DNA of 40,700 nt from the NCBI GenBank assembly GCA_017404555.1, contig JAFRCD010000002.1:123793-164492 (forward strand), read 5' to 3'. The notes beneath the pieces were generated by a model, which was not told the DNA's origin, did not search any database, and saw only the letters and a program-made list of their open reading frames with translations. This DNA comes from Bacilli bacterium (GTDB lineage Bacteria; Bacillota_I; Bacilli_A; RF39; UBA660). Below, piece after piece: positions 8,900 through 26,407 of the stretch (position 1 is the stretch's first letter; every line of letters starts with the position of its first letter). The position numbers and the translations under genes are program-made.

Positions 8900-9936
8900 A
8901 AAAGATTAAATAGTCTTTTCTTTTTCTTTAGATAAATAGGTATTTTCTTAATAGTTTTATTACTTAGTTTTATACATAGAACTCCTACTTGATTCTTTTG
9001 AGAATAGTTTTCTTTCATATCAATTCTAATTATTTTTTTTACTTCATCTCTTTCACTACTTGTCAAAGGATAGGAAAAATCCTCTTTAATATAGACTTCT
9101 TTATTAAAGAGCTTTTTATTTATTCTAAAACTTTTTTTATTTACTATTCGGTACTTTTTATACTTAGAAAAGATTTTTTCATATAAATATTCATGAGTAT
9201 CATATTGATTATCATCATCAAGAGTAACTATTGTTAAATTAAGACCATTTTTAGTAGCTGTACTAACAAAGGTTCTTCCGGCTTTAGGTGTATAACCGGT
9301 TTTACCTCCAGTAGTATATTTATATCTATTAAGTAGATCATTGCGGTTAGTCCAAATATAAGTTTTTCCTTTAGTTCTAGTTGTATACTTTTTACTTTTA
9401 GATATCTGTCGATATAATTCTTGTGTATTGTAAGTATAACTTGATAATTTAGCCATATCATAGGCTGTAGAAATATTTCTGGTTTCTTCGTCTAAACCGT
9501 GAGGATTTTTAAAAGTAGTATCTTTCATACCTATTTCTTTAGCTTTAGTATTCATCATTTTAACAAAACTCTTTTCACTACCTGCTGTATTAATAGCTAA
9601 AACTAAAGCTGCATCATTACCACTTCTAAGAATCATTCCATATAGTAAATCTCTAACTGTTATTTTTTCCCCTACTTCAATATAAATATTGGAACCATAC
9701 ATTTTTAATACTTCTTTTCCGACTTTTACTTTCTTATTTACATCAGTGTTTTCTAAAGTAATTAGAGCTGTCATTATTTTAGTAATTGACGCTATTAATC
9801 TTTTATCATGAGTATTATTTTGATATAGAACTCTCCCACTATCCATATCCATTACAATACTAGATCTAGCACTATCTAAGGCATAAGTATTAATAGGAAA
9901 TAAAAGTAATAAAAATAAAAACATATACTTTTTCAT
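8896..9936 (-). CDS. dacA: D-alanyl-D-alanine carboxypeptidase (S11 family, PBP5-like)
   Basis: The 346-residue exported enzyme trims the terminal D-Ala of peptidoglycan stem peptides. A signal peptide (1-19, cut after TYA) precedes the penicillin-binding domain. The active site is complete: SxxK as SITK (Ser50, Lys53), SxN as SGN (105-107) and KTG (212-214). The C-terminal beta domain is short and there is no obvious amphipathic membrane-anchor helix, so it may be only loosely wall-attached. The start codon and ribosome binding site sit in the loop of a 13-base inverted repeat (9921-9960). The 3' end overlaps the convergent phosphoesterase gene by four bases. Confidence 0.93.
   Translation of the reverse strand: MKKYMFLFLLLLFPINTYALDSARSSIVMDMDSGRVLYQNNTHDKRLIASITKIMTALITLENTDVNKKVKVGKEVLKMYGSNIYIEVGEKITVRDLLYGMILRSGNDAALVLAINTAGSEKSFVKMMNTKAKEIGMKDTTFKNPHGLDEETRNISTAYDMAKLSSYTYNTQELYRQISKSKKYTTRTKGKTYIWTNRNDLLNRYKYTTGGKTGYTPKAGRTFVSTATKNGLNLTIVTLDDDNQYDTHEYLYEKIFSKYKKYRIVNKKSFRINKKLFNKEVYIKEDFSYPLTSSERDEVKKIIRIDMKENYSQKNQVGVLCIKLSNKTIKKIPIYLKKKKRLFNLF
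8898..8925 (+). terminator. Terminator between convergent genes
   Basis: Arms AGAAAAGA (8898-8905) and TCTTTTCT (8914-8921) form an 8-base stem followed by TTTTC on the plus strand. It is built from the overlapping 3' ends of the phosphoesterase and dacA genes. Confidence 0.65.
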
Positions 9937-9960
9937 CTTTTCACCTAAAAAAGTATATGT
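9921..9960 (-). promoter_or_regulatory. Terminator-like hairpin enclosing the dacA start codon
   Basis: Perfect 13-base arms (9921-9933 and 9948-9960; ACATATACTTTTT in mRNA sense) enclose a 14-base loop that carries AGGTG and the ATG of dacA. On the minus strand the second arm is followed by TTTTTATTTTTATT, the form of an intrinsic terminator, although these bases also encode the signal peptide. A TATAAT at 9968-9973 could start a transcript exactly at the hairpin. Confidence 0.6.
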
Positions 9961-9974
9961 CTTATTAATTATAA

Positions 9975-10520
9975 TTATTTTAAGTTTTCTAAGAATCCTT
10001 TTAGTTCATCACTACTATTATAATAGAAAGCATAGCCTTCATCTTTGTAACCAACTAAAAGAGAGGTTTTATCTTCACCATAATCAAGTAAGAAATGATC
10101 TTTTCTGTTTTCTCCATCAATATCAGTAGTAATTAAATAGATATAAGCTGGACATGTCCTAGCAGAAGTTGTCTTCTCTACTTTATTAGCTTGCTTTAAT
10201 TTATTTACTACTTCCATAACAGAATCGATAGATAATTCTTTATTATTGATATCTAAATTAGGATTATTATTCTCATCAACACCGTTATCTTTACAAGTTG
10301 ATATATAAGCTTTAGTATTCTCGTCTTTTTCAACTAATTTAACTAATTCGTCTTCTAGTCCTTCATAATCAAAACTTATTTCTTCGGTATCGGTATTATC
10401 AACTTGATTTGATTTTGGACTAGGCTTCTCACTATTATCAATGTATAATAGCACTCCTAAAGTAATACTAATTAGGGCACAGATTACTAGTACCATAATT
10501 GTGAGCTTATTTTTTTGCAT
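9975..10520 (-). CDS. Membrane-anchored extracellular protein, unknown function
   Basis: The 181-residue protein has a short basic start, one hydrophobic segment (about 7-27) and a Ser/Asn-rich linker, then an acidic outside domain of about 140 residues. It has two cysteines, in STCKDNG and ARTCPAYI, that could form a disulfide once exported. I do not recognise a family. Its start (10520, GAGGTGG upstream) is 20 bases after the lysine-rich gene, so it probably belongs to the 11556-9975 transcription unit. Its transcript would run into the hairpin at the dacA start. Confidence 0.7.
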   Translation of the reverse strand: MQKNKLTIMVLVICALISITLGVLLYIDNSEKPSPKSNQVDNTDTEEISFDYEGLEDELVKLVEKDENTKAYISTCKDNGVDENNNPNLDINNKELSIDSVMEVVNKLKQANKVEKTTSARTCPAYIYLITTDIDGENRKDHFLLDYGEDKTSLLVGYKDEGYAFYYNSSDELKGFLENLK

Positions 10521-11611: not shown

Positions 11612-11641
11612 AAAAAAGACTATATTAATCATTATATAGTC
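11612..11641 (-). terminator. Terminator of the lipoprotein gene
   Basis: Arms GACTATAT (11618-11625) and ATATAGTC (11634-11641) form an 8-base stem. Six T follow on the minus strand. Confidence 0.7.
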
Positions 11642-12161
11642 CATGTATCTTAGTAATATCCTCATCAGGAATAATAATTATTTTCCACAAATTATTATCT
11701 TTTTCTAAGTCAAAGCTAAGAGTATATTTAACTTTATCAGTTACTTTTTGCATCTGTTTTATTTTATATTTCATAAACTTATCATTATCAACACTTCCAT
11801 CTTTAGCTTTAAAATCTTCTTCATGTTCTAAAATATATTTATCAGCTCTAGCAATAGCTCTAGCATAATCAAAAACTTCAATTTCAACATCTACAACAGC
11901 ACTATCACCATTAACTGTTTCGTTTTTAATTTTGTATGATAAGTTTTGATATTGTTTTTCCATTAAAGCCTTATATTCAGCTTTATTATCATGACTTAAG
12001 CTTTCATCAGCATCTAAAGTAGTTTCTAAATCATTTAATACTTCTTTATCCATAGTTTGGTATTTACCAAAGAACTCTTCAACTCTTTTAGTAGGTGTGT
12101 TCATCATATTCATACAACCAACTAAAAATATTAATGGTAGTATTAATAATATTTTCTTCAT
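11625..12161 (-). CDS. Lipoprotein, unknown function
   Basis: The 178-residue protein starts with a lipoprotein signal: MKKILLILPLIFLVGC, with the lipobox LVGC and Cys16 as the lipidated residue. The mature part is a charged alpha/beta domain with two repeated-looking stretches, VDVEIEVFDYARAIARAD and YTLSFDLEKDNNLWKI. This is the pattern of small NTF2-like or DUF4878-type lipoproteins that pair a helix with a curved sheet, but I cannot assign the family firmly. It is anchored outside the membrane. It appears monocistronic, with GGAGGATAATT before the ATG and a terminator straddling its stop. Confidence 0.75.
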   Translation of the reverse strand: MKKILLILPLIFLVGCMNMMNTPTKRVEEFFGKYQTMDKEVLNDLETTLDADESLSHDNKAEYKALMEKQYQNLSYKIKNETVNGDSAVVDVEIEVFDYARAIARADKYILEHEEDFKAKDGSVDNDKFMKYKIKQMQKVTDKVKYTLSFDLEKDNNLWKIIIIPDEDITKIHGLYND

Positions 12162-18073: not shown

Positions 18074-18102
18074 ATTATAAAGCAAAAATGTAAAGAAAAC
18101 AA
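18074..18102 (-). promoter_or_regulatory. Promoter of the NlpC/P60 effector unit
   Basis: TATAAT (18074-18079) with TTGTTT (18097-18102) lies on the minus strand with a 17-base spacer. The -35 falls within the loop of the palindrome at 18084-18117, and the near arm is in the spacer. Confidence 0.5.
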
Positions 18103-18117
18103 ATTCTTTACATTTTT
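18084..18117. repeat. Inverted repeat with TGTAAA/TTTACA arms (operator candidate C)
   Basis: Perfect 12-base arms AAAAATGTAAAG and CTTTACATTTTT are separated by 10 bases. A third half-site, CTTTACATT, follows at 18119-18126. It could also serve as a weak terminator of the esaB gene, since TTTTT is included in the arm. Confidence 0.6.
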
Positions 18118-26379: not shown

Positions 26380-26407
26380 AAAAAAACATATAAATATATG
26401 TTTTTTT
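26380..26407. terminator. Bidirectional terminator between trpS and WXG genes
   Basis: Arms AAAAAAACATAT (26380-26391) and ATATGTTTTTTT (26396-26407) with a 4-base loop have T-runs on both strands. They would serve trpS and the convergent WXG100 unit. Confidence 0.75.

Follow-up and report, generated by a model that had tools for sequence, protein, structure and literature searches.

Which transcripts does a terminator-shaped hairpin act on when its loop encloses the ribosome binding site and the start codon of a gene? The question arises in a 40,700-nt stretch of DNA from a Bacilli bacterium of the RF39 order, called the window below, in which a carboxypeptidase gene begins inside a perfect inverted repeat. 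The locus comprises the following features:

9975..10520, minus strand: unnamed co-directional ORF, the presumed source of read-through, ending 38 nt ahead of dacB
9973..9978, minus strand: putative -35-like ATAATT of this locus, overlapping the upstream stop codon
9960-9948, minus strand: 5′ arm ACATATACTTTTT (repeat search), overlapping the conserved -10 element
9952..9959, minus strand: sigmaE/K-type -10 element CATATACT, overlapping the 5′ arm; family motif CATANNNT
9947-9934, minus strand: 14-nt loop TAGGTGAAAAGATG (repeat search), holding the SD sequence and the start codon
9941..9946, minus strand: SD sequence AGGTGA and predicted transcription start region, separated from the -10 element by a 5-nt spacer
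9933-9921, minus strand: 3′ arm AAAAAGTATATGT, codons 2-5 (K K Y M) and the first base of codon 6
9906..9920, minus strand: T-rich tail TTTTATTTTTATTA after the 3′ arm, signal-peptide codons
8896..9936, minus strand: dacB-like D-alanyl-D-alanine carboxypeptidase with signal peptide, matching Peptidase_S11 and PBP5_C

The sequence-only reading of this DNA had described a perfect 13-bp repeat with the SD sequence and ATG in a 14-nt loop, followed by a T-rich run encoding the signal peptide. The repeat with its coordinates and the coding role of the tail were confirmed, the ATG lying at 9936-9934 (minus strand) inside the loop. The gene had been called dacA; its identity as a carboxypeptidase held, but its two domain matches fit the name dacB-like better. 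It is probably a sporulation-type D-Ala-D-Ala carboxypeptidase and a spore-wall gene. Domain and profile searches found no family match for the ORF at 9975-10520, and a terminator scan found no ordinary terminator between this ORF and dacB. On the 3′ side, a co-directional ORF directly follows dacB in 88 of the 131 loci of relatives. The start of 56 of these 88 ORFs matches an SpmA-like pattern of our own design, and a Gate domain was present in all three downstream ORFs of relatives that were tested.

RF39-order Bacilli are spore formers by prediction (PMC10868615), and the genome encodes SigE-, SigG- and SigK-like factors. The SigE-like factor scored 314.8 bits, below the curated cut-off of 339, and the SigK-like factor 297.6 bits, above the cut-off of 252 of its subfamily model. 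As expected of a gene under sigmaE or sigmaK control, these factors are present here; of the 21 family genomes in which dacB had no match, 20 were tested for sigma factors, and 17 of these also lacked a SigE-level hit. In nine genomes (G005, G051, G070, G072, G074, G111, G117, G128 and G130) neither a dacB match nor a gerM match nor a SigE-level sigma factor was found; this triple absence is consistent with a loss of sporulation.

The stem consists of 13 perfect pairs including two G-C pairs. Perfect repeats of at least 13 bp with a loop of 3-20 nt occurred twice in the window and in none of 30 Markov sequences of window length. The 440.7 kb of the genome that were covered, window included, contain 371 SD-led starts; only that of dacB was spanned by a stem of at least 13 bp with at least two G-C pairs. 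Swapped halves of the same 371 starts gave an expectation of 0.125, and the own-genome count alone is only suggestive. A general habit of forming hairpins at start codons was considered for the whole genome and rejected, both on energy (98 signal-type genes, z +0.6; 130 sampled others, z -1.3) and on the length of perfect stems (z +0.2 and z +1.4, respectively).

As in an intrinsic terminator, the 13-bp stem is followed by a U-rich run, TTTTATTTTTATTA; a G+C-rich stem and a short loop are not found in the dacB hairpin. The standard terminator scan, which requires three or more G-C pairs and loops of 3-8 nt, had no entry between 9000 and 11500, the dacB stem having two G-C pairs and a loop of 14 nt. 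Rfam gave no match at E≤1 between 9600 and 10600. Three other perfect repeats of at least 12 bp in the window (18084-18117, 1421-1449 and 26380-26407) each contain one or two G-C pairs, so that terminator-like elements in this DNA seem typically to have AU-rich stems. These three, which are perhaps AU-rich terminators invisible to standard scans, are intergenic or sit at the end of a gene, and of the four repeats only that of dacB has an arm in a gene start.

A conserved promoter element runs through the 5′ arm. After dereplication, 94 of 131 family loci carry the motif CATANNNT ahead of dacB, and its representative in the window, CATATACT, is a CATA-type octamer as expected for the -10 region of a sigmaE or sigmaK promoter. 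In 103 loci chosen by a score that favors this motif, its C was conserved at 94% against a background of 10%, and the spacer to AGGTG was exactly 5 nt in 89. For the -35 region, the column signal was weak and lay at positions -19 to -16, counted from the C of CATA, where many relatives have a terminator arm. The -35 of sigmaK is AC. In C. difficile, as described in PMC3789822, the -10 boxes of sigmaE and sigmaK closely resemble each other and it is the -35 that sets them apart, being ATA for sigmaE; because a -10 of CATATAAT is given there for a sigmaK promoter, we label the dacB promoter sigmaE/K type.

A search of the own genome for the pattern CATAYNNT-N4-6-AGGTG found 11 sites, compared with three for the reversed control. 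Eight of the 11 sites precede an ORF start, genes with Germane, PRC-barrel and LysM-amidase domains among them. The 18-mer CATATACTTTTTTAGGTG is identical at window positions 9942-9959 (dacB) and upstream of a Germane-domain gene (G000:C4:112718-112735), and the promoter pattern precedes gerM in 29 of 30 relatives. At the 371 SD-led starts, TATAAT boxes ending 5-9 nt before the SD sequence were counted 48 times versus 4.8 expected from shuffled upstream sequence, and thus an almost leaderless mRNA starting near the SD sequence looks like a local habit. Judged from the sequence, the own dacB transcript would start near 9946, downstream of the 5′ arm. Since most of the 5′ arm is -10 region, it should be absent from an mRNA with this predicted start site. 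Folding energies agree with its absence: the read-through strand 9975-9900 folds with -17.5 kcal/mol (z -4.2, at 37°C only), and a transcript beginning at 9946 with -8.5 kcal/mol (z -1.0).

Whether start-spanning pairing depends on the neighboring gene was examined in a swap test, in which the duplex energy of the own upstream 60 nt with the downstream 54 nt of each dacB start was compared with that of swapped partners. Neighbor classes were assigned algorithmically, having been defined once the first 151 loci had been seen, and swaps were made within class. Twenty-three of 37 early loci were used (L022, L024-L030 and L032-L037 were left out as class-level, paralogous or distant). Of the 365 matching family genomes, 22 loci already in the set, 28 new loci and 100 regions were used; L031 was added separately, and dereplication reduced the 151 loci to 131. 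Together these gave z -4.7. Loci with a co-directional neighbor and no terminator showed the strongest pairing (n=30, z -5.3; z -4.9 without the window locus), followed by those with a co-directional neighbor and a terminator (n=69, z about -3.8). In contrast, loci with a divergent neighbor had no pairing excess (n=29, z +1.5). The own pairing of the window locus ranked at 0.006 among its swaps.

The idea originated from the first 23 loci (z -5.6). The 108 later loci, collected after the hypothesis had been noted, gave z -2.05 together (p 0.02), with values of -3.1 without a terminator (n=22, p 0.002), -1.9 with a terminator (n=56, p 0.03) and +1.4 for divergent neighbors (n=27). A second set was announced before its analysis, and all definitions were left unchanged. 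It used 70 of 80 genomes (eight with a match starting at residue 47 or later were excluded, as were G154 and G205), and 66 loci were usable, of which 59 were kept. The second set gave z -2.5 together (n=59, p 0.008), -3.6 without a terminator (n=18, p 0.0005) and -0.3 with a terminator (n=35); only three loci had a divergent neighbor. A different helix score, in which higher values mean stronger pairing, yielded 3.7 without a terminator, 2.6 with a terminator and -1.0 for divergent neighbors. After dereplication at 60% protein identity the values were -3.3 (n~11), -4.0 (n~17) and +0.7 (n~7) in the same order. Nine controls with displaced windows ranged from z -1.3 to +0.1, with one exception at -2.1. 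The excess of start-spanning pairing is linked to a co-directional neighbor and is steadiest where no ordinary terminator is present.

Several results count against an attenuator. The excess of the terminator class fades from set to set (z -3.7, -1.9 and -0.3), and 16 of the 30 loci without a terminator rank at 0.15 or worse. Moreover, 150 mixed other starts from the same loci, heterogeneous in composition and start calls, gave z -3.1, which cautions that part of the signal can be imitated by composition. A further point, a mismatched inner pair, came from the alignment of similar relatives.

Ten loci were listed for this alignment, and the eight aligned have CATATA as their -10 and TATATR as a codon pair; L183 and L216 were excluded as they have no like start, and an earlier dereplication had already removed L098, L100 and L110. 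Pairing was kept in 91.3% of 104 cells, and three pairs (1-41, 8-34 and 12-30) had changed on both sides, so the arms do not vary freely without compensation. The covariation score was matched by 14 of 500 shuffles. The loci pair at 11-13 of 13 positions, at all 13 only in L001 and L115. The inner pair held against an attenuator is 8-34: the window has C-G there, L115 has T-A, and the other six loci have a mismatch. Of the 13 positions, two are mismatched in a single locus, L097, which is also the only one of the eight with a divergent neighbor. Support from these eight loci is modest, because they were chosen for having both arms alike.

Other lineages carry start-spanning repeats of different sequence at the same place: ATAGCATATT in L007, CAGTAATAT in L019, GACTAAATAATAA in L182, AAACAACAATA in L217, AGACTTATTAC in L023 and GAACAAAATTA in L329. 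A terminator 5′ arm GGACTAA is common among the relatives. At the dacB starts of L182 and L269 this arm lies upstream and a matching TTTAGTC is found in the signal-peptide codons; these two loci look like captured intermediates in a possible re-siting of the arm.

Perfect stems of the class without an ordinary terminator also carry a terminator-like tail more often than chance stems. Over all sets, five of 48 loci in this class had perfect stems of at least 11 bp versus 0.26 expected. The eight nucleotides after perfect stems of at least 8 bp contained 5.75 T versus 3.72 (p 0.002; eight stems, the window locus included). The best helix of all 30 loci in this class was not followed by more T than in swaps (0.496 of the next eight nucleotides versus 0.521). 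The T-tail excess favors a terminator-like element, from few cases.

From the hairpin, the conserved -10 element, the sporulation sigma genes, the orientation-linked pairing and the T-tail of the stem class, all found computationally, we infer the following as the probable function of the dacB hairpin: it would be a read-through attenuator whose loop holds a sporulation promoter, a ribosome binding site and a start codon. Polymerase arriving from the upstream gene would transcribe both arms, and the AU-rich 13-bp stem with its U-rich run would end or abort the transcript. Any read-through RNA that escapes would hold the dacB start within the narrow loop of the hairpin. In sporulating cells, a mother-cell sigma factor of the sigmaE or sigmaK type would direct polymerase to initiate at the SD sequence, past the 5′ arm, and the resulting mRNA, unable to form the hairpin, would be freely translated. 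The spore gene would thereby stay silent in growth although a same-strand neighbor lies 38 nt away, and spores might be affected in turn. The sequence-only reading had offered an attenuator of upstream read-through as one possibility, and the co-directional pairing excess and the T-run after stems bear it out. A function at the site of the dacB start is likely for the family; we are somewhat less sure that the hairpin acts at the window locus itself.

An alternative that we regard as unlikely is a translation lock only, in which the hairpin of the read-through RNA would mask the initiation region while transcription continues, with the ATG in a tight loop or, in other lineages, paired. The ATG does pair with the CAT of the -10 element at the top of the stem in L019, L188 and L182, and a read-through hairpin of such a kind has been proposed for B. 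subtilis sigG (PMC5942855). In the window, however, both the SD sequence and the ATG lie in the loop and not in the stem, and the T-runs after the eight perfect stems exceed chance. A translation lock may act alongside termination.

Less probable still is a coincidence at this locus, where the conserved -10 element CATATACTTTTT would match the K-K-Y-M codons of the signal peptide by chance and without function, whatever the case in relatives. Each arm has a constraint of its own, the 5′ arm as a promoter and the 3′ arm as codons, the 0.125 stems expected among 371 starts are not negligible, and the covariation among similar relatives is modest. Against this stand the rank of the own pairing among its swaps, the three pairs changed on both sides, the lack of a listed ordinary terminator between the two same-strand genes and the excess that its class keeps without the window locus.

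It is very improbable that the hairpin belongs to the 5′ end of dacB's own mRNA, started near 9961 from the TATAAT at 9968-9973 and serving as the stabilizer or temperature-responsive start of the sequence-only reading: the TATAAT exists and stands 7 nt ahead of the stem, but it falls in the -35/-10 spacer, is absent from the promoter-scan list and is not the conserved element, which is CATANNNT; loci with divergent neighbors need the same own mRNA yet show no pairing excess; a stabilizer is removed because the own transcript is predicted to begin past the 5′ arm, from about 9946, and a thermosensor is unlikely because the SD sequence lies in the loop of a 13-bp stem (folded at 37°C only).

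Hairpins specific to read-through RNA have precedents. The IS10 transposase gene and the T4 lysozyme gene e are protected from upstream transcripts, the read-through RNA folding over the start region. As at dacB, the proper promoter begins inside the fold; unlike dacB, these cases belong to a mobile element or a phage and are translational. We know of no T-tail or orientation-linked recurrence in them. The closest described case that we found is B. subtilis sigG, for which a large hairpin was proposed to block PspoIIG read-through transcripts (PMC5942855), and the dacB hairpin appears to resemble it while being terminator-like and recurrent. As far as that account goes, sigG is a sporulation gene with its own promoter and a hairpin that forms only in read-through RNA from the upstream operon and is impossible in the own transcript, as is predicted for dacB. 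Pairing at dacB likewise occurs where upstream transcription runs in (z -5.3 and -3.8 for co-directional, +1.5 for divergent neighbors). The sigG hairpin has 20+ pairs and a proposed translation block, whereas that of dacB is a 13-bp AU-rich stem with a terminator-like T-tail; the gene and the sigma type also differ, and different sequences are used in several lineages. In Tn916, a terminator near one end acts as an insulator (PMC11658703) and, in that description, shields genes from neighboring transcription as proposed here. At dacB, unlike in Tn916, a promoter, ribosome binding site and start codon lie in the loop, and the 3′ arm is made up of codons.

A wider reading, for and against which we are evenly balanced, is that such elements are self-exempting terminators: the family would repeatedly have moved the 3′ arm into signal-peptide codons, beyond the promoter, SD sequence and start codon; a complete sporulation promoter would then lie in the loop, and the terminator would act on all transcripts except that promoter's own. 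If the attenuator acts as proposed, a compact genome can place a tightly timed developmental gene behind another operon without spare DNA, with an insulating terminator that shares its letters with a promoter, a ribosome site and a protein. Selection of coding sequence for RNA termination could then be tested on a concrete example, and one regulatory structure would have arisen repeatedly from unrelated sequences, a recurrence that searches by alignment would overlook.

That start-spanning pairing is a general trait of genes with sporulation promoters was not borne out, as the gerM starts gave z -0.2 (30 loci). At most starts of L238-L267 (upstream of gerM), L044, L047 and L048, a terminator-like hairpin, a CATA-type -10 and an SD sequence lie within ~60 bp, and at most of them the T-run directly abuts CATA. 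A second start-spanning repeat of the window, TATTAATAAT/ATTATTAATA, lies at 12161 (minus strand), at the start of the gene 11625-12161, which is lipoprotein-like as judged by eye from a cysteine. Repeats similar to it are found at starts in L101, L171 and L207 that were called lipoprotein-like by eye as well.
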